Origin: Daucus carota subsp. sativus
Lineage: Eukaryota > Streptophyta > Magnoliopsida > Apiales > Apiaceae
DNA length: 64,000 nt
Direction of reading: 5' to 3'
NCBI RefSeq assembly: GCF_001625215.2
Contig: NC_030385.2
Span: forward strand, 46,773,598 to 46,837,597
Position 1 is the first letter of the stretch; the number at the start of each line of letters is the position of its first letter. The position numbers and the translations under genes were made by a program. Below are positions 13,998-46,560 of this stretch, piece by piece. Below the pieces are notes generated by a model. It was given only the letters and a program-made list of their open reading frames with translations. It was not told the DNA's origin and made no database searches.

Positions 13998-15886
13998 TCA
14001 GTATCTGGTAGGAAACTCGCACTTTCCAAACTCTGCAAAATTAACAAACAAACGAAATTTAGGAACTCCAACAATAATATAATCTGTATAGTACAAACAG
14101 TTCCTACACCGATACATAATAAGAAATTTGTAATCCGGATAAAATTCGAGCTCAGTTCGTAAAATATAGACTACACTGGTACACTCTCAACATTACCGGT
14201 ACACTCTCAACATTGGTACACTCGATGCTCAATGATTAACCCACTAGCCCATTGCACACTCAATTATTATCACGACTAGTCCTCCCATGGCATGTTCTCT
14301 TGTGAGACATGTCAGGTGGGGTTCAACTTTCCAGGCTTGATCGACCTTTCCTATTGTACCACTTTAGATTCCCTCTACTTTAGCATTTTAACATATCAAA
14401 TCACTAACATGCGCATTGTCGATAAATAAATTAGTAAAATTTTTAAACGAGTCGAAAACATACTAGGTGGCTGAGTAACAACGTAAGCAGCTCCCTCGAA
14501 ATCACAGGAGCCAGCTACCCTTCCTTTCTTCTGATAAAAGCTGTTAAAAGCAAACGAAGCATGCGCCTCAAGTGTGTTAGGATCGTAACACGTGGACCCC
14601 GGCTGAATCGGATGGCAATCAGCCGCACCCTCACCACAAGCATAATCTAGCCCGCGCTGCACCTTATCTTTCCCCGCTTCTACATTCACCACACACCACG
14701 TTTCCCCGGCTGCACTGACTGACATGTCAGCAACCGGTAACCGGTCGACCCGGTCAGTCTTTAACCCGTCGACGTTAAACGAAATATCGTACACTTTTTT
14801 CTCGTCGGGGTAAAACAGTCCATAATTCCTCTCGGATGTGGGCCCGAACTTCTTGTTCTCGTTGAAAAGAGCGAAGAGGTAAACTGTTAAGTTTGTGTTC
14901 GGTCTTAAAGGGGTCCCACCGCCAGCTAAGACTCGCTTAATAAGGTTACCGTTATAAGCTGCGGCATTTTCGACGCTCGCGCCTATTTCATTCTTGTCAC
15001 CTTTCGACGGCCAGCCCGTTTCCGTTACGACGATGCTAACATCGTCGTATTTCAACGCCGACATTGCCGCGAACACGGCGTCAATTTGGGCGTCGAATAG
15101 GCTAAAATAACGGAGATTATTGCCCGCGTCAATGACTCCGTTATTTTGCCGAAACAATGCGTAATCTAACGAGATGACGTCAGCATTCGATTCGTAAGCG
15201 AAGAAGGGGTATGCGTTGAGCATGAGCGGGGATTTAATTTCACGGAGGAAGTCTAGCATGGGTTGGATAACGGGTAGGAGTTCGGGTTTGAAAGACCCGG
15301 CTGAAGACGGGTACGAATTTTGGAGAGCGGATAATGCGATTGGAGACGAGATTTTTATTAATTTATCGAGATTATATTTGACGAGAGCGGAGTGAATATT
15401 TTTCATAGCGGGTAACAAATATTTGGTGGTGTTTTTGGGGTCCACAAAGACTTCGTTTCCGACCGCAATGGCTTCGATTTGAGTTGTCGGGTAATACGCG
15501 ACGATGTTTCGTTGGACCCACGAGTTGGCGAATGAGGAGTGTCTGGCGGTGGCGAAGAGGAGTTCATTGGGGAGATCAACGGTGACTTTGATGTCGGAAC
15601 GCGACAAAGATTTGAGAACGGCGGGATCGGTGTCGTAGACTTTGACACGTGTGATGCCTTGTGATTTGAGAAGCTTGACTACTTTGAATGCGGATGGTAA
15701 GTTGTTGGCTATTCTCCCGTAGTTCACTCCCACTGAGCCTTGTCCATCTGTAAAAAAACAACAAACACTACAATTTTAAAATACGATACCTGCAGTGACG
15801 GAACCAGAATCGAAAATAACGAAGAATATAAATGTACCTGCTGCAAGAGTGAAAATGAAGAAGAGGAGTGGGATGAGTGGGTTCAT
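13998..15886 (-). CDS. Glucan endo-1,3-beta-glucosidase (GH17) with C-terminal X8/CBM43 domain
   Basis: A secreted wall enzyme that hydrolyses beta-1,3-glucan (callose). Exons 15886-15838, 15747-14464 and 14032-13998 join in frame to 455 residues. Exon 1 encodes a hydrophobic signal peptide (MNPLIPLLFFIFTLA). The GH17 barrel begins GVNYGRIANNLP. The general acid is the Glu in AVGNEV (about residue 115), and the nucleophile is the Glu in ETGWPS (about residue 259). After a short linker the X8 domain starts at TWCVVN and carries the expected cysteines, ending FGKCEFPTRY. No hydrophobic GPI-type tail is present. Without the last intron, translation would read into an unrelated hydrophobic tail, so the splice to the 35-base terminal exon is needed. 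The same terminal intron occurs in the paralogue at 45046-46560. Confidence 0.93.
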
Positions 15887-27837: not shown

Positions 27838-28183
27838 TGCTTAGTACACATCTTTCCACAGATTTGTTTGTGTTGTATTTAGTGATGAATGTCTTTGAAA
27901 ACTCCATTTATTGCAAATAGTATATGTGATTTCCGAGTAGGGTTTGGTTCATGATTAATGAGTCGGTTAACGAAAATCGGAACCTCCTATTCCCGACTAC
28001 CATCCAAACAGCTCAGTCATTCATGTGCATGAAATCTTAGCTGCATTACCTGTAAATTAAGTGTAGTGAAAGCATAAACTCAAACTCCCTGTTGTTCAGA
28101 ATATTACCTTTTTGAGTTTGATTCTGGAGCTCTTTTTTTAACAATGAAACAAAATTGTAAAATCATAAATGTGTTGCATAATA

Positions 28184-28416
28184 CTCCCTCCGTCCCCTTT
28201 TACTTGTCCCTTTTGAAAAAATAACGCATCTTAAGAAAATGTTAGGTTAATAAATGTAATTAGATAGAGTTGTGTATATATATATGCTAGTCAAACATTG
28301 GAAGTTGTTACATTTTGAAAAAACATACAAAAAGTTGCTTTGAAAAGAGAAGTGGACAAGTAATTTGGGACAATTTTTTTTTTTCAAAAGGGACATGTAA
28401 AAAGGGACGGAGGGAG
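28184..28416. mobile_element. Stowaway-like MITE, 233 bp
   Basis: TA-flanked inverted termini: CTCCCTCCGTCCCCTTTTAC at the left and GTAAAAAGGGACGGAGGGAG at the right, about 20 bp with almost perfect pairing. The arms extend inward through CTTGTCCCTTTTGAAAAAA and its complement. It lies in the 3' flank of the NPF gene, about 40 bases before the proposed 5' end of the Helitron. Confidence 0.9.
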
Positions 28417-29526
28417 TAACTCTTGAACAAGAGTCACCAGTAAAGATGAAAAAGCTCATCAATCAATACCCTTTATTAATAAGCGAAACCACGTTTCGGT
28501 GGAACATCGGTACTAAAGTACCAAAATTTGGTCCTCCTATATATTTAATTATATATTTATTATTTCTTTTAAAAGTATTATACTCCTATTGGAACACATA
28601 TATATTAATCTTTAATATATAATATAGTTTCCACAACCAAATATTCGTAAACGCTATCATAATTTGCAAAAATAAATATTCTGCATCTATCAAGACATTG
28701 TCATATATTATATACATTATCTTTGTTTAGATATGATACTTATTATGTATTGATTTTTACCCCTATTTTAATTTTAAATTTTTCTAAAAACGTTATTTTC
28801 AAATAGTTTATTTATAAAGCATGTTTAAGTTATTTAACTTTAATTTTTAAAACTAATTTTACAACTATACTTTATTTTTAAAACATATTTAAGTTATTTA
28901 GCTTAAAATTTTAGTTTGTCATACAAGCAAACACAAACAAGTAAACAACTACCACTCCTAAATCTACGAGAACTCCGACCTATATTACACAAATCTATTA
29001 TAACTCTAAAACAATTACAAAAGAACTCCACCCAACATTACACATCATTATTATAGCTCTAAAATAATTATAAATTTAGTCATCACTTTTCTCATCGGTG
29101 ATAGCTTTCTGATTCAGTCATTGTCAAGTGTTTCAGCAGGACGGTTTTCGAAAGTTGTTGCAGTGAAGTATTGGACCACAACTGATTAATCATTCCCCGA
29201 ACCAGACCTTACCACATCTTTACAGGTCTTTCTCTCTTGATCACCATATTTAGATTTATGTGAACATAACCTGCAAAAAAAAAATATCATGTACAAATTT
29301 TACACAGTGCAAATTAACAAAACCTCTTAATAGTCTTAATACACAATATTGTAAAGAGCTGAGCAATGCTGGATAGGTCCAAGCCAGTCTGTTGTTTCGG
29401 GTTATTTTACTTATCCATAAAGCAGTTTGTTATTTTGGGTTATTTTACTTATTCATAATTCGGCCTGTTGTGTATTCGAGGTAAATCTTAAATATTTTAT
29501 TTAATGATTATTTATATTTTCCAGCT

Positions 29527-30090
29527 ATGCTTACATCAGAAATTCAGAATACAATGACAAAAGAAAGGCAACGCAAAACAAGAGATTCTGAAAATAATGA
29601 TAAGCAAGATGAACGTAACAAGAAGCGCAGGAAAAAATATATGGAACAGGTACGAGAAACAATCCCAAAAGGCCCAAAAGACTACTTTTGAGTTTATAAA
29701 CATATTTGACTTATTCATATAAAAAACACACAAGTTTATCAAGTTCAATATTCATATACTGACCAATCAAGAGTATTATTTCCACAGAAGGCTGAAAAAA
29801 TGCAAGCTACACAGACGGAAGATCATTTGGCTCTTAATACAAGTTAGAAATTAATTTTGTATTTCAATGTTTATATGTTTTTTAGACAATTTGATTATAT
29901 CAAGCATGCAAAATTTTACGTCAATTGTTTATTTAGCAGAAAATCTTCAAGAAATGACTCAAGTGGATATAGTCAGAGACAAACGTAACAAAAAAAGACG
30001 TGAAAAGTACAAAGAAAGAAAGTCGAATTATGGTTTGTATTTATTCCTTATTTTCAAAGATACCCGTGCACAAATTTAAACATGTATTTA

Positions 30091-30138
<48 letters not shown>

Positions 30139-33100
30139 TAATCATATTGTTGAATTTTATATGATCAACAACAGCTATTGACTTTAATCCACCACAAATT
30201 GCTGCACCATTGGTTAACGATGAACATACAGGTTTGTATATTCATATTGGTGTCACAGGCTATTATGAATATGAAAAACATAATATATTGATTCTAATTA
30301 TATAGTAATGACAATTCTTGAAATATAGTCAAGGAAAACATAATATAATATATACTATCATGTACTGGCTTCATTCATTTAATTTGTAATGCAGAAAATC
30401 TCCTACAACGGACTCCAGTTGAGAAAACCAATGATAGACGTAATAAACAAAGGCGTGAAAAGTACAAAGAGAAAAAGTTACAGGCATTACAAGCTGGTTT
30501 GTATCTTATAATTACATTAACAATCACTCTTTTGTGTGTTTTACATCTTATTAACATTACGCAACTCGCTTTGAAAAATGTGAAGATACTTCTGCAACTG
30601 CTAAAAGATGTACAACCAGGAAATTTAAATCTGACATGGAAAGAGATGAATATAATAAACAACGTCGTGAAAGACGCAAGGAAAAAGCATCAGAATCTGG
30701 TGAGATACTGTATACTTATGCTTATTTATTTGTGTACTATTACATATAGTTAAGCATATTATTATTAACATTTCAAAATTTTAAAACTTTGCAGGAAACA
30801 CACAGTTCCTTGCTAATTTATGTTGTTTCTCTTCCTATTAATTTTATGATATTCCATTAATATAGATGTACTTTATTATTACTACATTATATATGCAATA
30901 ATATGTACATCTTATAACAGTTTCAGACAACAATCACCTGGAATCGAGAGCTATTAATCCTTACTTCATAGTCCAGAATTCTGTTCCACGGACAGGTTTG
31001 TTTTTAATCCCAGAATCCTCATTTATGACTTATTTCTGGAATCCTATTCCAGTATTAATATATGCATGTAATTACCTATTCGTTTTTTCAGATTTTACAC
31101 ATTTATTACTTATTTATGAGTTTAATATCTGATGTTAGTATTAATTTAATTACCTACCTCTTTGTGAAGATTATACACCGCTTAGCAACAGGATGAAGAA
31201 TAAAGTAAACAAAAGAAAAAGAAAATTCGGTATGCTATCTTAAATTCATATAATTTTGTATATTATAATTACAAATACAATTAGTTACCTCTTTTTCTAA
31301 TGAGTGAATATTTTTATTCTTGCAAATATCGTTGCAGCAATGAATGAAACCATTCTTGATATAGGAAGTGCAGATAAAATATGTTACTATTGCAAAGCAC
31401 ATATGTGGGAATTGGAACAATCTCAAGGAGGAAAGAAAGCCAGTAATCAAGGCTTCTCACTTTGTTGTGGTAAAGGAAAAGTTGATCTGCCTCTATTGAA
31501 AGAAACACCAGCTGAATTGCTTTTGCTATTTGATTGTGATGATCAAATGTTTGTGAAAAATATCCGAGTATACAATAATGCCTTTGCATTTACATCCATG
31601 GGGGGGAAAATCGATAACAGATATAATAATGGCGGAGGACCATACGTATTTATTTTACATGGTCAGACATATCATCAAATTGGATCATTGCACCCAGTGG
31701 TCGGTAAGAAACCAGTTTTTGCACAATTATATATGTTTGATAATGAAAGGGAACTTGAAGAACGTTTGAATTTTCCTTCAAACGGTGACAAGCTGGACAA
31801 AGATATTACTGTTGCCTTAACAACTATGTTACACCGAGATAATGAATTAGCAAAGACTTTCCAAAGTGTTCGGGACAGATTTAAGGATACTGATTTAGTT
31901 CAGGGAAAACTACGTTTGGTGGCAAATCGCGAAACTGATGGTCGTAACAGTAACAATCCAACAGCTCCATATGAGTTTGCAGCATTAATTGCAGATGATG
32001 ATTTGTCCAACTCTAGAGATATTGTGATTAAATATCAGAGTGGTACTCTACGTAGAATATCAACACTAAATCCAGCTTTCATGCCTTTACAATATCCATT
32101 ATTATTCCCACATGCAGAACAGGGATACAGGACTGGAATTTTACATCGTGGGGTAACACATGCTTCAGAAAATAAAAGAGATGTGGTGACTATGCGGCAA
32201 TTTTATAGTTTCAGATTACAACATCGCGATGATGAAGGGCATACATTACTTAGAGGGGGACGATTATTCATGCAATTTGTGGTGGATGCATGGGCATGTA
32301 TTGAGAATGCTAGACTAACATGGGTATTAAAAAACCAAAGTGTTTTAAGATCAGATGTGTACAATAATATTGTTGATTCTGTGAACCGTGGTGATGTCGA
32401 TGCATCAGCTGTAGGAAAGAAACTTATATTACCATCATCATTTACTGGGAGTGCGCGCTACATGCAACAAAATTATCAAGATTGCATGGCTGTTTGTAGA
32501 AGATTTGGAAGCCCTGATCTGTTTATTACTTTTACATGCAATCCAAAGTGGCCTGAGATTACAAGATACTGTAATAAGATTAAAAATGCCTCTCCTTATC
32601 ATAGACCAGATATAATGGCAAGGGTGTTTAAGATCAAACTTGATTTGCTTCTGGAAGATTTGTGCCACAATAATGTTCTTGGAAAAGTTATCGGAGGTAC
32701 TGGTCATATGTTTTGTATTTTCCTAATGTACTTATTATTGATTTTTAATTTGTTCGTTATCTTACTCTTATTTATTATTTGCAGTTGCTTATACTATTGA
32801 GTTTCAAAAAAGAGGTTTGCCACACGCTCACATAGTTGTGTGGCTTGATGAGTCTAATAAATGTAAAAATACCGAGGATATTGATTTTTTAATCTCAGCT
32901 GAAATCCCAGACAAAGATATTGATCCAGCTGGATATAATGCAGTTTCAAAGTTTATGGTCCACGGTCCATGCGGTGAACTCAATAAAAAATGCCCTTGCA
33001 TGAAAGATAATAAGTGTACTGTCCATTTCCCAAAAGACTACAGGAATGAAACTACAATTGATTCCAATGGTTATCCTGTTTACAAAAGACGTAACAATGG

Positions 33101-36100
33101 ACGTGTAATAATGCGCAAGGATGTTGCTATCGACAACAGGTATTACTTTCATTCATTTGTATTACAACACACTCTAGATTTAATATAATTGCAATTATTT
33201 GTTATGTTGTGAGTGGAAATAATGTTATTTGTTTATTTTGTGATACAGGAAAATAGTTTTATACATAACAATACTGTTTATTATCAAGTTTATTTATAAC
33301 GTTAAGAGTTTATACTATAAATAAAACTGCTGATTGTAAATTTTTAGTAGCGTCGATAAATTGTTATAACTATCTATTATTATCTTAGTTATCTATGCAC
33401 TAAATTTCCTTTATTGCTAAATACATTAAAAAGTAGCCATATTATTACTATTGTAATTATTGTTTTCTTATATTATTAATATGTTTAGTTTGCTTTTGTT
33501 TTTAATTTCTCCTATATAATTTTAAATAATTATGCTGAGTTGTATCCATGTATTCAAATTTCGGGATCCAATTTTAACATCATATTATTTTACTTGCAGA
33601 TTTATTGTTCCATACAATAGAGGTCTTATCGTTAAATATCAAGCTCACATAAATGTTGAATGGTGTAATCAAGGTCGTTTGATTAAGTATATGTTCAAAT
33701 ATGTGACTAAAGGCCCGGACAGAGCAACAATGGTTATTGAGAAAACAGAAAAACCACAAACTGATGAAGAGAATGGAAAAATAGATAAGAATGAAGTTGA
33801 TGACTATATAGCATGCCGGTACATCTCTTCAATTGAATCATGTTGGCGAATATTCGAATTCCCAATTCATTATAGAAAACCTGTGGTTGTGAAATTAACA
33901 TTTCATTTGGAGAATGAGCAACAAATTTGTTTCAGAGAGAACGAGTCACTGCCTACAGTTTTGCAAAGACTACATCCGGATGCAACAATGTTCATACAGT
34001 GGTTTGAAACAAATAAGCGATACCAATGTGGAAGAGAACTTACTTATGTGCAGTTTCCAGAAAAATTTTTGTGGGACAATAAGGGAAAACTTTGGACTAA
34101 ACGAAAGAATAAAATTCAAGTCGTAGGCAGGTTGGTGTACGTTCATCCAATGGCTGGAGAGCTTTTTTATTTAAGAATGTTGTTGAATGTTGTACGTGGA
34201 GCAACATGTTTTGAGGATATACGCACAGTTAACGGTGTCGTTTACAGCACGTATAAAGAAGCTTGCCTGAAGTATGGGCTCCTTGAAAGTGATGATGATT
34301 GGCACTTGGCACTCTCAGATGCTTCTATCCACCAGACAGGGTCACAGCTTCGACTATTATTTGTTACTTTGTTGTTGTTTTCAGATGTTTCAGATGTTAG
34401 AACACTATGGGATAAGAATTGGAAGCTATTTTCAGATGATATTGAATATAAAGAGAGGAAAAATTCTGGATTACGAAATTTTGTCATCAGTGAACAACGT
34501 CTCCAGTCCCTTACTTTGTTAGATGTTGATTATCAGCTACGTAAAAGAGGGAAATCACTATCAGATTTTCCTGCTCTTCCACCACTGGATACTGATCTTA
34601 TACAACAAAGTCAGAACACACTACTATATGAAGAATATATGTACGACAAGCATGCACTAGCAGTTGAGGCCAAAAAGTGTTTAGATATGTTAAACGAAAA
34701 ACAATTGAATGTATACATGACTATTACCACGAATGTTAAACAAAAGACAGGAGGTTTATATTTCGTATACGGTCATGGAGGCACCGGGAAAACATTTTTA
34801 TGGAAGACTATCATCAGCTCTCTTAGATCAGAAGGAAAAGTAGTCCTAGCAGTTGCTTCATCTGGTATTGCATCGTTACTAATTGAAGGTGGACGTACAG
34901 CACATTCAAGATTTAAGGTCCCGATCAACATTGATGAAAATAGTACATGTGATATAAAACAAAAAACATTTTTGGCAGAACTGATAGCTCAAACTGATTT
35001 GGTTGTTTGGGATGAAGCACCTATGAATCATAAGCACGTTTTTGAGGCAGTTGATCGCTCTTTTCGTGATATTATGCGGCTGAAAGATCAGAGTAATTTG
35101 GATAAACCATTCGGAGGCAAAACAGTCCTATTAGGAGGCGATTTTAGACAAATTTTACCAGTTTTGCCTAACAAAGGACGAGCAGATGTTGTTATGGCAT
35201 CAATAAATAATTCGTATTTATGGGATGATTGTGTTGTTTTTAAATTAGATCAAAATATGAGGATTGAGACAGATGCTCCGCTCATTACAGTTTCAGGCCA
35301 ACAAATCTCATACGCAGATTGGGTTATTAGTGTGGGCGAAGGAAAGGTGCATACAGTTTCATCAACTAATGAAGGGGAGCAATGTTGGACAGAAATACCA
35401 TCTGAAATATTACTTGATCCTAAAGATAATGGTAAGAAAGTAATAAGTGAAACAATCTATTACGACTTATGTGACAATGGTAAAGAACCCAGCTACTTTA
35501 GGGATCGTGCCATCTTGACCCCTTTGAATGAAGATGTTGATGCGATAAATAAAGACGTACTAAGTCACTGGCCAGGTTTGTATCAAAATGCAATTATAAT
35601 AGTTCATCACTACTCCGTTTCTAACTAATTTCTAATAAATATTATATAATCTTATTTTACAGGTGAATCCAAGGTATATTTAAGCTCGGACTCAATATGC
35701 AAGGGATCGGTAAACTGCGAATCACAAGAATGTATGTACCCATCAGAACTCTTAAATTCAATGAAATTTGCAGGAATACCTAACCATGAACTAGAGCTTA
35801 AAATTGGAGCTCCGATTGTTTTAATGAGGAATATAGCACCAGCTAAAGGACTGTGCAATGGTACAAGACTGATTATAACTCAACTATGTGCCAGAGTTAT
35901 AGAAGGGATTATAATAACAGGTAATCACATAGGCGAGAAAGCTTTTATACCCAGAATTTGCATGAGACCTACAGATTCTACATTGCCGTACACGTTTAAA
36001 AGAATACAATTCCCGGTTGCTTTATGCTATGCAATGACTATCAACAAAAGTCAAGGCCAGACCTTAAAATTTGTCGGGTTATATTTGCCTAAGCCAGTAT

Positions 36101-36240
36101 TTAGTCATGGACAACTCTACGTAGCTATATCAAGGGTGACCTCGCCATTGGGATTACATATCGTTTGTGAGAGTGATAGCCATCCAATATATGGGATGAC
36201 TAAAAATGTTGTATATCACGAAATATTCTATGGTTTGTAG
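29527..36240 (+). CDS. Helitron RepHel transposase (HUH Rep plus Pif1-like helicase)
   Basis: Rolling-circle transposase. Exons 29527-29649, 29788-29842, 29940-30032, 30175-30231, 30395-30496, 30586-30699, 30921-30995, 31170-31229, 31338-32696, 32785-33139, 33600-35575 and 35663-36240 join in frame to 1,648 residues. The first eight small exons encode a very basic N-terminus. Rep motifs are FITFTCNPKWPEI (about 621), the HUH motif PHAHI (about 691) and the catalytic two-tyrosine motif KYMFKY (about 826). The SF1/Pif1-like helicase has Walker A GHGGTGKT (about 1188), Walker B VVWDEAP, GGDFRQILPVL, LMRNIAPAKGLCNGTR, TINKSQGQT (about 1583) and YVAISRV. Every motif is intact. The first exon follows a CAG acceptor, so an upstream exon, coding or UTR, may exist and the start is provisional. 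Exon 6 uses the acceptor TGAAG; the boundary is inferred from phase. Confidence 0.9.
30092..30136. repeat. (AT)n microsatellite in a RepHel intron
   Basis: About 22 uninterrupted AT units between RepHel exons 3 and 4. No coding role. Confidence 0.95.
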
Positions 36241-36380
36241 TTTTCCCTACTTCATCATATGTTTAAAGAAGTGATTTATTAGAAATTTTATCATCTATTA
36301 TATTTAATGTCTGTTTTACGATACAAGTATTTTAACAGGATTTACACAACTTAACATGCACATTCACAGTTATCGTATAT

Positions 36381-37005
36381 CATTGACACATGCTATAATC
36401 TTATAAACAAAAAAGAAGTTGCGTACCTGATTCAGTTTAAATCTGATAATCATTACATATTCCCCCACAAGATTGACTCCTAATTCTGCAATCTGTATAC
36501 ACTCTGCATTTTACACAAATACATCTCCCCTGATCTGCACACAATTATATTAAAATTTCAGTAAGTATGTTCCTCCACACTATCATTGACACATGCTATA
36601 ATCTTATAAACAAAAAATAAGTTGCGTACCTGATTCAGTTTAAATCTGATAATCATTACATATTCCCCCACAAGATTGACTCCTAATTCTGCAATCTGTA
36701 TACACTCTGCATTTTACACAAATAAATGATTGGGCAATGGAATATTCATGTCATACCAATAAATTAGAATTTAGAAACACATGCTACAATCTTATAATCC
36801 TACCTGTTAAAATATAAAACTAAGAATAACGATCCTTCCTCCTCATCATTTTGCTGACTCACTCCTATCTGAGTACAACTGAAACAACTTCACGATTATG
36901 GTGACACTGGATCCATTAAAAGAACTGTATAAATGATCCTCATCTCCCCTGATATGCACACAATTATATTAAAATTTCAGTAAGTATGTTCCTCCACACT
37001 AAAGA
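36381..37005. repeat. Dispersed direct repeats in the RepHel 3' flank
   Basis: A block of about 146 bases, starting CATTGACACATGCTATAATC, occurs at 36381 and again at 36584 (offset 203) with almost no differences. A second sequence, CTCCCCTGAT(C/A)TGCACACAA continuing through TTCCTCCACACT, occurs at about 36523-36580 and 36944-37000. They lie between the RepHel stop and the F-box-like gene, inside the Helitron. No coding frame spans them. Confidence 0.9.
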
Positions 37006-37679
37006 AAATTATAACTTTCAACTGTCCTGTATATGTTTTATAAATCGTTAAATATATATACATGAACAGAAAACAATTTCATGATATTTAATAACAAAAT
37101 AATCACAAGATTAATTCCAACTATCATCATTAAGCACCTTCACTACAGATGGACAAAATTAGCCTTCTAGAATATTCAACATGTAAAATAATGGAAATTT
37201 TAACATTTTTTTAGAAAATAATTTTTTTAAAAAAAAACAATGATTCACAACCTAATTATATAAATATTTATTTATTTATATTATAAACATATAAGACATT
37301 CAATATTTTCCCACAATTAATTATTTGTGATATAAAAGTTATAGAAGTTTTGATATTTATATATATGTAAAAATAAATCATTTACTAAAATCCACAAATA
37401 TTAATATATTAAATTATAAGGGTTTCGACAACATTATTTTTCCACTCAACACTGTGCCTAAATTTTTTAGCAAAATCCGACATTTTAAAAAATTCCCCAT
37501 TAAAATATCTTTATAACTAAATATATTATTAATTTAAATACAAAAATAGAATTTTACTAATATGTAATCAGATGTCTACTAGAATTCGTTTCAATATAAA
37601 AACCTACTTATAACGAGGATACAAATCCTTATATATTATAAGTCCATACATAGCAAAGCTTATTACTTTTATTATCGTT
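37006..37679. other. AT-rich spacer upstream of the F-box-like gene
   Basis: Non-coding and strongly AT-rich. TATATATTATAAG at about 37630-37642 lies 40-50 bases before the ATG of the next gene and could serve as its TATA region. Nothing else was recognised. Confidence 0.4.
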
Positions 37680-38372
37680 ATGGCATCTTCCTTACACGAG
37701 CTGCCACTTCACCTAATTATCATCATCATGCAAAAGATATCTTCTCAAAATTTCTTAAATTTCTTCAATTTCTTTCTCGCATGGTCAGCTACAAAAAGAC
37801 AACCAACTATCCAGATGTTATTGGACAACTACCCAATAGATGAATTGTACTTCTGGGGACATGACATTCACAGGCCTCATGAAACTATGTTTTTACGTTT
37901 TATGAAAATCTCAAGATATTTGAAGAACAAAGATGCAACGTTTTACCTGGTGTTCAAGAGTATTATGATCAGGAGATACGAAGAATTTAAGGATTTTGGT
38001 GGAGCATATGAAGAACTAGAATCATTGTCAATGAATAACCACACAAAATCTATGTTGTTAAAGAGTTTGCTGGATGTATATTATTTCCCAGACAAAAGAC
38101 ATGTTGCAGTTGCTACTATAATCAACCTAGCAACAAATTGCATGACAAGAATACAAATTCCAAGAATGATCACAACATTCAAAACCATAACACGGGCTAT
38201 CTATCCAGATACAATGTTCGACCAAATATTGTCCCCTCCTATTTGCAACAAATATAATACTTTAGAAGAAAAACACTACAAGCCAGATGGGATGCCAATT
38301 TATTCTCAGGAAATAAACAATTTTTCTTGCAACTATTGTAAAGTGGCTATCATATTTGCATGTTTGACATAA
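37680..38372 (+). CDS. F-box-like protein carried by the Helitron
   Basis: Single-exon frame of 230 residues. The N-terminus has the spacing of an F-box: LPLHLIIIIM, then ISSQNFLNFFNFFLAW over about residues 7-50. F-box proteins recruit substrates to SCF ubiquitin ligases. The rest is predicted helical and contains RYEEFKDFGGAYEELES and repeated Leu/Lys-rich stretches, with no LRR or kelch repeats. A CNYC pair near the C-terminus recalls half of a zinc-binding site, but the partner cysteines are missing. The gene is on the same strand between RepHel and RPA. It could be a captured host gene or a regular passenger of this Helitron family. The family assignment rests on the N-terminal pattern only. 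Confidence 0.6.
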   Translation: MASSLHELPLHLIIIIMQKISSQNFLNFFNFFLAWSATKRQPTIQMLLDNYPIDELYFWGHDIHRPHETMFLRFMKISRYLKNKDATFYLVFKSIMIRRYEEFKDFGGAYEELESLSMNNHTKSMLLKSLLDVYYFPDKRHVAVATIINLATNCMTRIQIPRMITTFKTITRAIYPDTMFDQILSPPICNKYNTLEEKHYKPDGMPIYSQEINNFSCNYCKVAIIFACLT

Positions 38373-38515
38373 TATGTTTTAATGGAATAAATTTCTTTTC
38401 CCCAATGTAGTAAAGTTTTCATTTTTTCTTACAAATATTGTGAAGCAGCTATCATATTTGACATAATATGTTTTAATGAAATATACCTCTTTTCGGCACT
38501 GTATTTAAGTTTTCA
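38321..38515. repeat. About 100-bp tandem duplication across the F-box gene 3' end
   Basis: Copy 1 (from 38321) holds the last coding codons, the stop and the start of the 3' UTR of the F-box-like gene. Copy 2 (from 38422) repeats it with substitutions and small deletions; GGCTATCATATTTGCATG in copy 1 aligns with AGCTATCATATTTGACAT in copy 2. The offset is about 101 bases. Confidence 0.8.
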
Positions 38516-38775
38516 TGTGTATAGTTACTGCTCATCTTTAATATTTGCATCCTATTATCCTAAATATTAAATTTAACAGATATACCATACATTCATATGT
38601 ACTATCTATAAACAAATTATAAGAAAAAATTTAAACAATTAATAAAATAATTACAAATTTAATTCGAACTACAATAGAAAATATATAATATTCATTACAA
38701 ACTATTTCAAAATATTTTTAATATAATTGTACTCTAAATTATAACTATATATTATGTCAATTAAATATTATGTTA

Positions 38776-39081
38776 TATTAGAAAATTTAATATATTATAA
38801 ATTCTATCGAGAAAAGAATTCTACTTCGACAAATAATCTCAGAAACATCATAATCATATACAATAACTGTATTAAGGACTTCTAATTCTATAAGGTTTAC
38901 AAATGTTAAACAACTAATGTAATATTAGAAAATTTAATATATTATAAATTCTATTGAGAAAAGAATTCTACTTCAAGAAATAATCACAGTTACATCAGAA
39001 TCATATACAATAACTATATTAGAATCATATACAAAAACTACATTAAGGAATTCTAAACTTATAAGGTTTACAACTGTTAAA
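38776..39081. repeat. About 147-bp tandem duplication upstream of the RPA-like gene
   Basis: TATTAGAAAATTTAATATAT recurs at 38776 and 38923. Each copy continues through GAGAAAAGAATTCTACTTC, AATCATATACAATAACT and ends near TATAAGGTTTACAA. The second copy has an extra internal repeat of AATCATATACAA. It is non-coding and lies just upstream of a probable 5' UTR exon of the RPA-like gene. Confidence 0.85.
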
Positions 39082-39394
39082 CATCTATATATATACCCTT
39101 AATATTGCCTCTTGGACTAACGAATTCCAGGCCATTGCCGTCAAATACAAAAAGGTGTGTGTTTTACCTCTCTGTCGATGTTTTGTTCATGATTTAGATC
39201 TGATTGACTTAAATAAGGTTGATCTGTAGATGCATTATATATCATCTTATGTAATCCCATATATATTCTTTATGACATGCAACTATTCTGAACATGGAAT
39301 ATGTATATTGTGTTTCATCATTAAACAATAAAAACCTTCAGTAACTGCCTAACACATAATGATTTTCTTATTATTGGCCTTTCAGATATTCACT

Positions 39395-42305
39395 ATGGAA
39401 AGAACATATCAATATTTAGAGGAACTAACACCTAACAAGGAGGATAGCAAAATCAAAGTTCGGGTAACAAGAGAATGGGAATCAAGAAATCCAAACACTA
39501 ACCATCTTATCAACAAGAACTACATTCTGATGGATGAACAAGTAAGATCCTCCCTGCACAACCAAATTTATTTCCCTACTTTATAATGTCGATACAATTA
39601 CATATATGTAATATTCTATATATACACAGGACACCCTCTATCATGTTTGGTTAATGTGGATAAAATTACATCTATCTAACATTATATGTGTGTGTGTGTG
39701 TGTGTGTGCAGGGCATGCTTTTCCATGTTTTGTTGATGCTCAATCAAATAGATGAATACACAAGAAGAATACAAGTTGGGAACCTTTATTTGATTTCTAC
39801 TTTTGCAATTGCATGTGCAAATGATACTTACAGACCAGTCAAAGGAGATAAAGTAATTAACTTTACCAGGAAAACAAACATCAAAAAACTAGGTGATGAC
39901 TCATCTATCCCAAGGCATGGATTTGAACTGGCGACATTTGACGAAGCAAGATCCAGGGTTGGAGCAACTACAACACTTATTGGTACCTAACAAAATATCA
40001 TGACTAACTGTTTACATTATACGTACCAGATTATTACATAATTTGTTATTACTTCATTATTCCAGATGTTGTGGGAAAGCTAAAGTCCTTCACTAGAATA
40101 CAAACTTTGCCCCGTAACAAAGAAAAACTAGACATCACCCTCCAAGATGATACGTAAGTTATTCACAATCTCAATTTTTAAGGTCAACATCACCAAAATA
40201 TGTAATTACACATTATATTTTATGGCCTGACTTATGAATCTAAACGATGACTTGTGATTTACAATGCAGAGGCGATGAAATGACTGTCACACTATGGGGA
40301 CAACAGGCACATCAGTTTGAAGATTTAAAGAATGAATACCAAAGACCAAATATTGTGTTAATTGTCACAGGCACCAAAGCGGTTATGTACAATGGTAATA
40401 TACACTTTAACAATTTTTGCATCAACTATGAGTAAATACTAAATATAACCTTGAAATGCAATATTTGTGTGGTAATTTTGATGTATATTAAGTGTATGTT
40501 TATGTTATGATAATATTGCACTGAATCTAGGATATGTTTCACTTTAATATTGCCTACAGCAAAGCCTACATTATCAGCAACAAGCGCAACACAGTACTTT
40601 ATAAACATAGATTACCCCGCGGTGAACATATTACGCAAAAAAGGAGGACAAGAGAAACTGGTGCCCGTTATTATTCAACCTATTACAAATCCTAGACAAC
40701 TTCTGCTTGACAACATCGACCACATATCTATTGAAACACTACTCGATATTATGTTACCAGATGGTAAAAAGGTAGATATTTCAGAGCCTTTAATTTCTAT
40801 TGACATATATTACAAACAAAATGGAATTGTAACTTTGCAAAAATATTTCAACAAAAACAAGTCTAATTTATACTTTCTTCTTATTCAAATGCAAGGAATT
40901 CTATTGCTCAATTGAGGCAAAAGTGATTGGGATAGTACCAAACTATGGATGGTATTACATTGGATGCAATAAATGTTTCACAAAAATGAAAGTCCCTCCC
41001 CATTGCAACAGTTGTACAAACAAAGATACAAGTCCAGTGAAGAAATACAGCGTGCTTTTAAAAGTACAAGACCAGACTTCAACTACAACAGTGTTACTTT
41101 TTGATAGATATGTTTTGGATTTGGTAAAGGTTCCAGTTCAGCACGTGCTAGACAATGACGAGGTATGTTTAATTTTGCATAAATCAATTAATTTAGCAAT
41201 ATTTATTTACTTACACTAACTTTGTTCAATCTTATGTTCTTCACCAGAGTGCAGACCCATCAAATATACCATCAATTCTTAATAACATTATTGGGGGTAC
41301 ATTCAAGTTCTATTTGAAAATTACAGCATACAACACAACCGGAGTAAGAAAGGAAGGCTATACAGTTGTGAAAGTCGAGGAAATGGAATGCGAGGAAAAT
41401 CAAGGAGACAAGCCAGTTAAAGAGAAAAGACCACCTTCAACAAGTACGAAGCAAATGTATGATGATTCAAATATAGATTCTGAAGTTGGAATTTATAATT
41501 GCAAGTATGTACCAGAAACAGAGCTAAATAAAGGGAAAAGAACTCACGAAAAGAAGGGGCTCCATACACTCAACCACCAGGAAAACCAAAAGAAGCATAA
41601 AGTGAACTCTCCCGTGGACAATAAACTTTCAGAAAACAAAGGCGATGAGGGAATAACCAGACCAGACAAAAAATCTGATCAACGACAGAAGACGGTGCCC
41701 ACAGCTTATAAGAATAAGAAACCTCCACCTGCAACTACTAAACAGAATACCAATAAACCACAGATACCGGTGAATGAACCAACAAACAAAGAGCAGGTAC
41801 CATCAAAAAATGATGAAGCAATTAAGAGAAACAGTACTTCCAACAAAACAATCCAAAAAGATTTGAATGGTGGAAAGGAGAAGAAAACCAACCCAAAGTA
41901 AGTATTTTGTATTTTATAATTTGCTGATGAGATAATTTCATATTTAATGTTATCCTATTTACAACCAATTTCCCCCCAAAATATTATCATTTAGTATCTG
42001 CAAGCATACTGGGATATCGACATTCAATGTTATCTAAATTTCCTTTCAGGGTTCCTTTACTCAGCTCAGAACCACACACCCCTGATAACAAGAGAAAACA
42101 TCGGACATCAACTGCTACAAAGAATGCCAAAAAACCAAAATTCACTGACAGTTGCATAAACAAGGCTACAGAAGACAAGATTGGCAACAAACCTCACAAA
42201 TTATATGCACGTGATGACACGCTGAAGACAAAGAAGATAACTTCTGACAAGAAGACCACTGCAAAGCTATTACAAGGAACCAACAAAAAAAATGATAATC
42301 AGTGA
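39395..42305 (+). CDS. RPA1-like single-stranded DNA-binding protein of the Helitron
   Basis: Exons 39395-39541, 39712-39982, 40066-40153, 40270-40394, 40560-40771, 40896-41162, 41248-41897 and 42050-42305 join to 671 residues. RPA binds single-stranded DNA through OB folds, and Helitron-encoded copies are thought to assist rolling-circle replication. The first OB fold is at about residues 1-145 (YRPVKGDKVINFTRKTNIKK). A second, at about 150-280, contains VVGKLKSF and LQDDTGDEMTVTLWG. The third resembles DBD-C, with a zinc ribbon of pattern CxxC-x8-CxxC (CNKC...CNSC, about 305-320) after WYYIGC. The last 250 residues are Lys/Thr/Asn-rich and look disordered. ATG at 39395 follows a CAG acceptor, so a non-coding 5' exon ending near 39150 (AAAAAG before GTGTGTG) is likely. 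No stop interrupts the joined frame. Confidence 0.88.
39687..39708 (+). repeat. (GT)n tract forming the end of an RPA intron
   Basis: About 11 GT units run directly into the CAG acceptor of exon 2 of the RPA-like gene. They take the place of a normal polypyrimidine tract. Confidence 0.85.
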
Positions 42306-43449
42306 GAATTTGTCTTTCCACCTACTAAAAACGGTATACTTCATATTTACTATTATCACAGACACAACATAGGCATATGTCCTGCAATTTTCTCTTATTC
42401 AATATTAAGATTTTGATATTTGGTTTAAACATAAATATTAGATACATGCTCATTCCTCCTTATTCAAATTCCAATGTTTAATATATTTCATATTCTGTTC
42501 CATTTACTCACCGTATTATGTTCCTTATGCTCGATATAAAATTCAATCCACAGTCTTAATTCATATCTAAAACAATCAAAATACACAGATGCATGTAAGG
42601 TTTACGACAACCCTAACTTTGAGGTCACATATATAATAAATCTTAATACTTTCCAAGACCCATTCCGAATGATCTGACAGAGAAACTCAAACAAAAGCCA
42701 CACACGAAAATACAAACCAAAACCACATAAAGATAAAACTCCTAATACATGCAACACTACTTGAAATCCATCACAACAATATTATCAACTCTAACCTCTG
42801 AAACAATTAATCAAACATACCAACACCACAATTTAAGTTTAACCAGCCAAAACCCCAAACTAATCAATTCAATTCAATGATAATAATTAATAACAGGAAC
42901 AAAATAATAGCAGATAATAATTCAAATAATAAAATCAACAGAACAAGTGCTAACCTCCTCATTTCTCATCCACCAAAAGACAATCGCACCGCCACGCAGA
43001 TCCAACAAACACAATACACCTCATCAACCGTGATCAAAAACCAACAACTAAACCTCCGGCCTCACTTTAATTCGAATATAAAATTAGTATCTTCACAGTA
43101 TGCCTCTTCCAATTGATGCTTCATCAACTAAAGCAAAAATATACAGACATTATTGACAAATGTGACTAGCGGTGTCGGAATAAGAGAACCCAACCAATTT
43201 TCTACCTAAAAATCACGGTCAATTTCATCCTTTAATGTATTTTTTTAAAATATGATTCTCCCTTAATGTTACAAACGACAAAAATTTTATATTACTGCAT
43301 AAATTGGTTCTTTCTTTTCAAAGAAATAATCCAAAAATATACCCAAAAATTTAATATTTTTGATCTCAATTCTATTTAATTGAAATTTTTATTTAAAATT
43401 CATATGCAATTTGATTTAAGAACCGATGACTTTTAAAAAAATAAATAAT
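42306..43449. other. Helitron 3' non-coding region
   Basis: No gene was recognised between the RPA stop and the MITE. A 79-codon Asn/Ile-rich open frame from 42877 is low-complexity translation. The region is A-rich on the plus strand, consistent with Helitron internal sequence. Confidence 0.5.
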
Positions 43450-43451
43450 TA

Positions 43452-43748
43452 CTCCCTCTGTCCCATTTAATTCTATACGTTTCTTTTTAACTGTTCGACA
43501 CGCATTTCAATGCTCTTATAAAATATAGTTCCATACTGGCAAAAACAAAAAAAATAAAATAAAATAAAATATAGTTCCATAACTTATTTTTGAGATTTTC
43601 TTTTTTTGTATAAAAATATAACATCTAAACTTTAATTCAGAAAAGAAAAATTTTAAAAATAGATTGCACAACTACACTTTGCAAGATCATTAAAGTCCGT
43701 GCCGCGTCCCCGTCCCCCGACGTATACTACTCAGGGGGACGGAGGGAG
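43452..43748. mobile_element. Stowaway-like MITE inserted in the Helitron tail
   Basis: TA-flanked termini: CTCCCTCTGTCCCATTTAA at the left and GGGGGACGGAGGGAG at the right. It contains a short internal repeat (AAAATATAGTTCCATA, twice). The inverted termini are less well matched than in the copy at 28184, so this copy is older or recombined. It lies 0.7 kb before the Helitron 3' end. Confidence 0.75.
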
Positions 43749-44462
43749 TATATTTTTACAATATTTTATAATATATTATATATGATTTGTTCTTTGATTC
43801 AAATTAGTTTTTGTAAGTATAAAATATATTACAAAGAAATTATATGTTGCATTTGTATTGCAAACATTTTTTATAATTTGTTCATATCCTCTAAAAATAG
43901 AGAATAAATTGTTAAGATTTCTAAATAATTAAAAATTAATATAATCGCTATAAATCAGATCTCGGAATAGATACTTATTTTATAGATATTCGAACAAAAG
44001 ATAATATCTACACCTAAAACAAATGTATTTTAAATATTATTTCTTATTTAATGATGAAAAGTAGTTAAGATCATCTTATATTAGACAAACTATCTTACTA
44101 AATTGTATATAACTTAACACATATTATGAAGTAATTATCTCATCACACGGAATTTCACCTTTCATATTTACAATTTTTATCTTGACAAAAAAAACAACAT
44201 TAGAAAGATAATTGAAAATTTAAATTTTATCAACAATACAGTGCACAATGATTTTATTATAATATTACAATAAAATCGCTCATAACATGTCTGAACAAGC
44301 ATTATTATAGTTATAATCAACAAATATTGATAAATGAAAATTTTGTATACAAAAATATCTTACACAAATATGTTTAAAAAAATTTTCTAATACAATCAGA
44401 TTAATTATATAAACTTACAAAAATTACATCTATTTGAGATATTATAAAACTATTCATGAATA

Positions 44463-44490
44463 CCCGTGCTTGGCACGGGCTATCAACTAG
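44463..44490 (+). mobile_element. Helitron 3' terminal hairpin and CTAG end
   Basis: CCCGTGC (44463-44469), loop TTG and GCACGGG (44473-44479) form a perfect 7-bp stem. The element ends CTAG at 44487-44490 and the next base is T. Hairpin, short spacer, CTRR and insertion before T match the Helitron consensus exactly. Confidence 0.93.
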
Positions 44491-44906
44491 TATATATATA
44501 CACGACAAATCAAATCTATAACTGATATCAGTAAAAGGAAAATTGTAAGTGATGATCACATGATGTGCGTGACAAACTTGAATAATATGAGTATTAAATT
44601 TTAATAAATTTATGATGATACATATTATTATATGTGATAATAAATTTTAAGTTGGGCTATTTTAAATTTGATGTGAATTAAAATTTACTTGCCTTTTATT
44701 TAAATTCGACTTGAATTCGAATCCAAGAATAAATTATATATTCACATTTATTTTAAATATTATTAATAATATGAGTCAATTAAATTTTAGATTTGAATTA
44801 AATTTGGATTTATAGAATTTTAAAAATACAAATAAAATTAAATTTTGGTATTAAATCCAAATCAAAATAAATAGTGGCACTTTCCATTAAAGATCTCTCC
44901 ACGGTC

Positions 44907-44914
44907 TATATATA
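44907..44914 (+). promoter_or_regulatory. Probable TATA box of the plus-strand GH17 gene
   Basis: TATATATA lies 139 bases before the GH17 start codon, in the context GGTCTATATATACTG. It is followed by a CT-rich leader, common in plant 5' UTRs. The Helitron ends about 416 bases upstream. Confidence 0.55.
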
Positions 44915-45045
44915 CTGATAACCACCCTATCCCACTCCCTCCACTTCTCACGTCTCCCTCCCCATATCTCTCTCCCTCTCTTTCTCTCTCTCTATATATT
45001 CATAAACTGATTCGCACAAACTTCGTTCATTACACAACTCATTCA

Positions 45046-46560
45046 ATGTCGATGCTTAAGCTTTCTCTCCTCTGTTTCTTCTTCTTTCAAGCCGTGTATT
45101 GCATTAATAATTCTGGTTCCATCGGAGTAAACTATGGCAGAATAGCTGATAATCTCCCAGACCCTTCCAAAGTGGTGGAGCTTCTCAAATCCAACGGCAT
45201 TACCCGTGTCAAAATCTTCGATTCCGATCATTCTGTTCTCTCCGCTCTTGCTAACTCGGGGATTAGCCTCACCCTATCAATGCCTAATGGCCTCCTCTCC
45301 TCAGCTGCTAACGATCAATCATTCACTGATGCATGGCTTAAGGCCAACATTGTGCCCTTTCTTCCGAAGACGATAATCGAAGCCATTGCGGTTGGGAATG
45401 AAGTGTTTGTGGATCCTCAGAACACTCCGCACCTCGTGCCTGCGATGAAAAATATTTATGCTTCTTTAAGTAAATTTAATTTGAGCTCTGTTATCAAGGT
45501 GTCGTCCCCTGTGGCTCTTAGTGCACTTCAAAGTTCGTATCCGCCATCAGCTGGATTGTTCAAGTCTGATTTGATTGAGCCTGTGATCAAGCCTATGCTT
45601 AGCTTTATGCGACAGACAGGGTCGTATTTTATGGTGAATTGTTACCCGTTTTTTGCTTATGAGGCCAATACGGATACTATCTCGTTAGACTATGCTCTGC
45701 TTCGTCCGAATCAAGGCGTGAAAGACTCTGGCAATGGGAAGGTTTACAAGAGCCTGTTTGAAGCACAGCTCGACGCGGTTTTTGCAGCTCTTGATGCCTT
45801 GAAGTTTGATGATGTTAAAGTTGTTGTGTCCGAGACTGGCTGGCCTTCTGCTGGTGGTGATAAGGAATTCGGTGCTGGACCCGACAATGCAGCTTCGTAC
45901 AACGGGAATCTAGTGCGCAGGGTACTGACAGGAGGTGGTACTCCCTTGAGGCCTAATGAAAATCTCAACGTATTTTTGTTTGCATTGTTTAACGAAGATC
46001 AAAAAAGTGGACCTGTCTCCGAAAGAAATTATGGCCTATTTTATCCGAACACTCACAAAGTTTACGACATTCCATTGACATTATCCGCGATGAACGATAC
46101 GACGTCGAATCCGACAAACGGAAGCAAAGCAGAGGCGCCAGCAGCATCAGCTCCGGTAAACGGAGGAGATTTGAGTCCAAGCACAAGGGGACGTACTTGG
46201 TGTGTAGCAAATGTGCAGGCAGGGCAGGAGAAACTACAAAGTGGGCTGGATTATGCTTGTGGACAAGGCAGGGCTGATTGTGGGCCGATTCAGCCCGGTG
46301 CAACATGTTTTGACCCGGATACTCTTGAGGCCCATGCTTCTTACGCGTTCAATAGTTATTATCAGAAGATGTCACGTGCTAGCGGCACGTGTGATTTTGG
46401 CGGAGCTGCCTATGTGGTGACTCAACTTCCTAGTACGTGTCTTTAATTACAATTTTTTTTATTTTGATAATTATTTTTCTCTTTATTTTTATATTAATGG
46501 AATCCCTTTTTTTTTCCTGCAGAGGTGGGCAACTGCGAGTTTCCAACTACGAGAGGATGA
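45046..46560 (+). CDS. Glucan endo-1,3-beta-glucosidase (GH17) with C-terminal X8/CBM43 domain
   Basis: A secreted callose-degrading enzyme, paralogue of the gene at 13998-15886. Exons 45046-46432 and 46523-46560 give 474 residues. MSMLKLSLLCFFFFQAVYC is a signal peptide, and IGVNYGRIADNLP starts the GH17 domain. The general acid is in AVGNEVF and the nucleophile in SETGWPS. A linker rich in Ala, Pro, Asn and Gly (about 350-380) leads to the X8 domain at RTWCVAN. That domain ends VGNCEFPTTRG after splicing at the same position and phase as in the paralogue. The early intron of the paralogue (after the signal peptide) is absent here. No GPI tail is seen. The unspliced frame would end a few codons after the donor, so the 38-base terminal exon is needed to complete the X8 domain. 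Confidence 0.94.

Follow-up and report, generated by a model that had tools for sequence, protein, structure and literature searches.

Does a carrot Helitron with all of its genes in open frame still show signs of movement, and does the gene between its two expected genes belong to it? Here we analyzed a window of 64,000 nucleotides of Daucus carota subsp. sativus (contig NC_030385.2, C5:46773598-46837597), in which a sequence-only reading had placed a Helitron of about 16 kb with three intact genes: RepHel, an F-box-like gene, and an RPA-like gene. The genome of 441,086,747 bases in 11 contigs was searched for its relatives. We consider it likely that the window holds an intact, autonomous-type Helitron that was copied very recently to linked sites on one chromosome and whose third gene is a selected component. 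Its ends are exact, its frames intact, and its sister copies near-identical, so the roles of RepHel, RPA, and the third gene are open to direct testing.

The Helitron spans 16,028 bp on the plus strand and reads A|TC...CTAG|T at its limits (Table 1). Alignments of copies at unrelated flanks part company at both ends. On the 5' side this happens around A|TCAATACCC at window position 28463, where the 5' ends of the wider family also begin, so that the 28459 proposed earlier is 4 bp too early. On the 3' side, three genomic copies are alike up to CTAG and unrelated beyond it, and a hairpin with a 7-bp stem folds just ahead of this end, bearing out the textbook hairpin with CTAG|T of the sequence-only reading. 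The 5'-TC and 3'-CTAG ends are those of Helitrons, with TC/CTRR ends and no terminal inverted repeats. Insertion between a host A and T is seen at three local loci and at the fetched family ends. Host A precedes every one of the 20 5' ends that were fetched (20 of 40 scored; 4 local), and T follows all eight fetched non-local 3' ends (8 of 147 sites). TC starts 18 of the 20 fetched 5' ends; the other two start with TA (copy B, in a noisy stretch) and TT.

RepHel splices into 1,648 amino acids with a single terminal stop, exactly the length and the 12 exons claimed for it before. An optional 13th exon of 27 nt also keeps the frame and would give 1,657 codons; the N-terminal exons were modelled from splice signals and frame only. 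A Pfam search of the single exons identifies Helitron_like_N (1.4e-48), PIF1 (6.4e-86), and Pif1_2B_dom (2e-21), in agreement with the Rep and helicase motifs noted earlier. An RPA-like gene is frequent in plant Helitrons. The one here has an open frame and, with exons searched singly, matches to DUF223 (23.1 bits, under the curated cut-off of 24.6) and Rep_fac-A_C (22.8 bits, under the cut-off of 28.5), both at ~1e-4, as would fit an RPA-like Helitron component. Its frame is intact as first read, but chaining the splice sites gives 683 or 690 codons rather than 671. The middle gene is one uninterrupted 230-codon frame. With these corrections the earlier reading of an approximately 16-kb Helitron with open spliced frames holds, and an autonomous-type element with intact frames is supported.

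Table 1 Features of the Helitron in window coordinates.
Feature	Position	Strand	Evidence
Whole Helitron	28463..44490	+	Divergence of copies at both ends; agreement of family ends
5' terminus (TCAATACCC...)	28463..28530	+	Common to genome-wide family; 40 scored matches of 243 candidates
RepHel, 12 exons, 1,648 codons	29527..36240	+	Frame chain with GT-AG introns; Pfam
RepHel exons 1-6	29527-29649, 29788-29842, 29940-30032, 30175-30231, 30395-30496, 30586-30699	+	
RepHel exons 7-12	30921-30995, 31170-31229, 31338-32696, 32785-33139, 33600-35575, 35663-36240	+	
230-codon gene, homologue of Helitron-linked F-box proteins	37680..38372	+	Open frame; relatives; linkage; constraint
RPA-like gene, 8 exons, 690 codons (683 with alternative sixth acceptor)	39395..42305	+	Frame chain
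RPA-like exons 1-4	39395-39541, 39712-39982, 40066-40153, 40270-40394	+	
RPA-like exons 5-8	40560-40828, 40896-41162, 41248-41897, 42050-42305	+	
3' terminus, 7-bp-stem hairpin and CTAG	44457..44490	+	Fold; 147 genome sites with <=3 mismatches to last 29 bases

From what is known of Helitron biology, RepHel would nick the element at the 5' TC, its Pif1-type helicase would unwind the strand, and the 3' hairpin and CTAG would end the transfer. Insertion would then go between A and T, with the RPA-like protein coating single-stranded DNA. Our best guess for the 230-amino-acid protein is that it might engage a host SCF ubiquitin-ligase or replication and silencing factors.

Copies across the genome were located with a 91-bp 3' probe, which has three perfect matches, all on C5: copy A in the window, copy C at 46.898 Mb on the minus strand, and copy B at 47.012 Mb. 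Within the element, A and C differ by no substitution and by three 1-bp homopolymer indels, at all of which B sides with C; C also carries all 21 exons tested without change. A fourth copy, D, starts with TC at 46981429 and ends at element position 14,728. Its first 11,569 bases have 0 mismatches and 2 gaps to the element, and its next 3.2 kb have 9 mismatches and 47 gaps. Copy B shows the reverse, with 3 mismatches and 42 gaps in its first 6.5 kb and 0 mismatches and 5 gaps in its last 9.5 kb.

The stretch C5:46993000-47003000, where the truncated copy D ends, a flank is repeated, and B begins, is noisy, with many 1-bp indels, and is probably an unpolished false duplication in the assembly. 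The sequence that flanks D on its 5' side is repeated after D at 87% (14 mismatches and 28 gap positions among 317), and B follows; apart from this repeat, the joined flank is single-copy in the genome. We take D and B for a single insertion, falsely duplicated where the sequence is unpolished, and a separate insertion of D was judged unlikely, given that its flank recurs as a noisy copy directly before B and the joined flank is otherwise single-copy. Alternatively, D and B may be a real, diverged tandem duplication. Counting D/B as one insertion therefore leaves three insertion loci, which lie within 210 kb of one chromosome.

Because copies without substitutions sit at unrelated flanks, the Helitron appears to have moved very recently. 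Taking three substitutions as the 95% upper bound, a rate of 7e-9 per generation places the split of A and C less than ~13,400 generations ago. The same bound gives less than ~2,300 generations at 4e-8 per generation, the rate used in PMC10581907. Several points weigh against recent copying of intact elements. Five of the 12 RepHel exons in copy B and four of the eight RPA exons in copy D are altered, which we ascribe, without proof, to unpolished sequence, and near-identical copies can also arise by homogenisation during assembly polishing. Joined-flank searches, which covered C (40 of 179 candidates scored) and D/B (3 matches), revealed no paralogous empty site for either.

Recent movement does not imply present activity, and we regard the chances as evenly balanced that the element is structurally intact but silenced, its latest move some thousands of generations ago at most and its transposition now at an end. 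Silencing would fit an element with only three insertion loci in one 210-kb region; a single internal 401-bp probe matches only the local copies and a short repeat inside them. In wheat, a Helitron family was mobile when DNA methylation was reduced and heat stress applied (PMC13286980), so intact plant Helitrons may normally be quiet. Yet the window copy and C carry no disabling change, and an active and a silenced element are not separable by sequence alone.

Movement was apparently local, because all three insertion loci lie so close together on one chromosome. Three points placed at random would come to lie within 195 kb of one another with a probability of ~6e-7 (analytic; 0 of 2,000,000 simulated triples), a post hoc figure for three events only. 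The clustering could instead reflect an insertion hotspot, biased survival, or assembly duplication, an explanation to which we give somewhat less than an even chance. It would suit a sample of three loci in one genome, a D/B block that already resembles a partly false duplication, and the lack of local hopping by Helraiser in human cells (PMC4778049). On the other hand, the flanks of A, C, and D/B are unrelated right up to the exact element ends, which a simple assembly duplication would not produce, and the random expectation is very small. Local hopping, if true, is not predicted by the view of episomal circles that the Helraiser result was taken to support, and clustering that holds in other accessions would bear on whether Helitrons move via free circles.

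The 230-amino-acid protein has six carrot relatives that are 37-40% identical to it. The relative at C7:18.94 Mb, with 39% identity, begins with an F-box in its N-terminal part (PF00646, 2e-9), and the window protein is thus homologous to a protein with a true F-box. The open frame of the F-box-like gene was read correctly at the outset; the F-box label is without Pfam support in the window protein and fits the C7 relative better. A PDB profile search of the family gave three matches at E 0.01-0.68, none of them convincing, and the relative L052 has a weak, below-cut-off match to HEPN_RnaseLS. To our knowledge, the bat Helitron Helraiser is without an RPA or F-box gene. Nanoviruses, which are rolling-circle single-stranded DNA viruses, encode the F-box protein Clink beside their rolling-circle initiator; the likeness to the third gene is an analogy only.

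We next consider where relatives of this gene lie. Removing 4 local matches and 5 second pieces from 48 matches leaves 39 third-gene loci; for RepHel, the 100 matches listed (67 of 426 candidates scored) come to 62 loci without 5 local matches and 33 second pieces, and the 114 RPA-exon matches come to 110 without 4 local ones. Fourteen of the 39 third-gene loci are within 25 kb of a listed RepHel locus, all of them downstream and at 13 RepHel loci, compared with a mean of 0.32 and a maximum of 3 for random points (2,000 draws, with estimated lengths for C3, C4, C8, and C9). Similarly, 17 of the 39 are within 15 kb of an RPA-exon match (random mean 0.29, maximum 3, using the same estimated lengths), and 14 remain so when only the top 36 RPA-exon matches are used (random mean 0.09, maximum 2). 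Gene order differs between groups. At the five non-local RepHel loci of 68-72% identity, RepHel is followed by RPA and then by the F-box-like gene, all on the same strand; at one of the five the F-box-like gene is 31 kb away. Of the RepHel loci at 51-56% identity, seven are followed downstream by an F-box-like gene on the opposite strand. No fewer than four of these seven read RepHel, F-box-like (opposite strand), RPA, and one has RPA ahead of the F-box-like gene. The window order of RepHel, F-box-like, and RPA on one strand is a third arrangement.

Coding constraint was measured as the ratio of non-synonymous to synonymous change (dN/dS). Among five close homologues, 8 of the 10 pairs have a dN/dS of 0.21-0.38 (p 1e-3 to 2e-8); the pairs are non-independent, only L053 and L054 of the five lie within 25 kb of a listed RepHel, and each significant pair includes a copy less tightly linked to RepHel. 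The 11 comparisons that involve the window gene or L052 have saturated or nearly saturated synonymous sites and, in proportion, fewer non-synonymous changes (p <=4e-10). For example, between the window gene and a linked C2 homologue 113.4 of 137.5 synonymous and 232.6 of 549.5 non-synonymous sites are changed (p 5e-18).

Because linkage to RepHel and RPA exons exceeds random and the homologues mostly show coding constraint, we favour the third gene as a putative old, selected, standing component of the Helitron lineage, descended from an F-box protein. A fresh capture of the gene was judged less likely given the same linkage and dN/dS values. Pulling the other way, Pfam gives nothing for the window protein up to E 10, hence no recognisable F-box, and no counterpart of the F-box part of the C7 relative was found in the window. 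Moreover, 25 of the 39 related loci are more than 25 kb from any listed RepHel, and dN/dS is not significant for L053-L054 (0.86), the closest Helitron-linked pair, or for L056-L057 (0.51). The missing domain, the loci that are not within 25 kb of a listed RepHel, and the ratio of the closest linked pair would also suit a passenger, a host gene captured without a role and merely carried, as Helitrons do capture host genes (PMC6431247). We think a passenger unlikely, since linkage recurs in diverged groups with differing orders and strands and the comparison with the C2 homologue shows fewer non-synonymous changes. A selected component of F-box descent would give plant Helitrons an overlooked accessory function, if the gene matters. 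The broader proposal, that the lineage kept a host-acting, F-box-derived gene, comparable in this respect to Clink of nanoviruses, through changes of order and strand while its young family spreads by local hopping, is one we hold as doubtful.

The Helitron resembles several known systems, as far as these are described in the cited texts. Feng8 of the wheat Xuan-Feng family shows what one intact plant Helitron allows: it is an autonomous RepHel element whose ends are shared by non-autonomous members, with a spliced transposase of similar size (1,676 amino acids in 7 exons), a preference for AT insertion, and a 3' hairpin (PMC13286980). Unlike the window element, which is known from sequence, movement of Xuan-Feng/Feng8 was demonstrated experimentally (PMC13286980). 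Rice Mothra and its putatively autonomous sister family also combine RepHel with an RPA-like gene, with copies of ~15.5 kb (Table 1 of PMC4683698), TC...CTAG ends, a 3' hairpin, and short non-autonomous relatives. Bat Helraiser/Helibat shares RepHel, 5'-TC, CTAG-3', a 3' palindrome, and A/T insertion (PMC4778049). The terms "RPA" and "F-box" are absent from the main text on Feng8 (PMC13286980), as is "F-box" from that on Mothra (PMC4683698). In a review of giant transposons, RPA, OTU protease, and AP endonuclease are the additional domains given for Helitrons/Helentrons, and the term "F-box" does not appear (PMC6431247). Titles and abstract openings in the open Helitron literature name no F-box gene of autonomous Helitrons, and RepHel together with an F-box was not met there; subscription papers fall mostly outside this literature.

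The termini of the window Helitron belong to a genome-wide set, as the sequence-only reading had anticipated. Its last 29 bases have 147 genome sites with <=3 mismatches, 31 of them perfect, compared with 0 for the reversed control. Of 243 candidates for the 5' probe, 40 were scored as matches. Four are local, which leaves at least 36 elsewhere in the genome, most of them with 78-91% identity across 100-190 bp. Drawing on 100 of the 147 3' sites, 16 of the 40 scored 5' ends have a same-strand partner among the listed 3' ends at most 20 kb downstream; the other 24, including D, have no listed 3' partner, and none has only a misplaced one. Three of the paired ends are local, and 11 of the 13 non-local ones span ~1.9-2.4 kb. 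Because of these sizes, the data suggest that paired non-local elements are mostly non-autonomous. The short elements are linked to the window Helitron by these 5' matches and share no internal DNA with it at the one 401-bp probe; their candidate source is the window family or other carrot RepHel families with similar ends. Five of these 11 short elements lie on C6 between 27.90 and 29.06 Mb; they measure 2,423-2,425 bp, carry the family termini with perfect 3' ends, and may stem from a recent burst of non-autonomous elements.

In orange carrots, the EXECUTER-like candidate gene for Y2 is reported to carry a 17-kb Helitron (PMC10581907). The EXECUTER domain (PF12014) has a single match on C7, at C7:38992106-38992360. 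A link between the window Helitron and the Y2 insertion is not established: no 5' end or RepHel lies near C7 38.99 Mb among the matches listed, and the nearest listed C7 RPA-exon match (C7:39172827-39173096, 29% identical) is 180 kb away. An older gene table has two RPA70-like genes right after EXECUTER 2 (PMC5555471), which might be the Y2 Helitron's own RPA genes.

The neighbours of the Helitron in the window are a POT-family transporter frame on one side and a GH17/X8 frame on the other. The insertion ends ~0.55 kb (44490-45046) upstream of the probable start of the GH17/X8 (beta-1,3-glucanase-like) gene, and it may be situated in the promoter of this gene. Immediately 5' of the Helitron, 28182-28418 resembles a miniature inverted-repeat transposable element, with 43-nt inverted ends that are 93% complementary. 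A similar ...CTCCCTC/GAGGGAG... stretch, seen by eye and not returned as an inverted repeat in the repeat scan, is found near the 3' end of the Helitron (43450-43750). Two 147-nt direct repeats (36378-36524 and 36581-36727), 99% identical, lie between RepHel and the 230-amino-acid gene.

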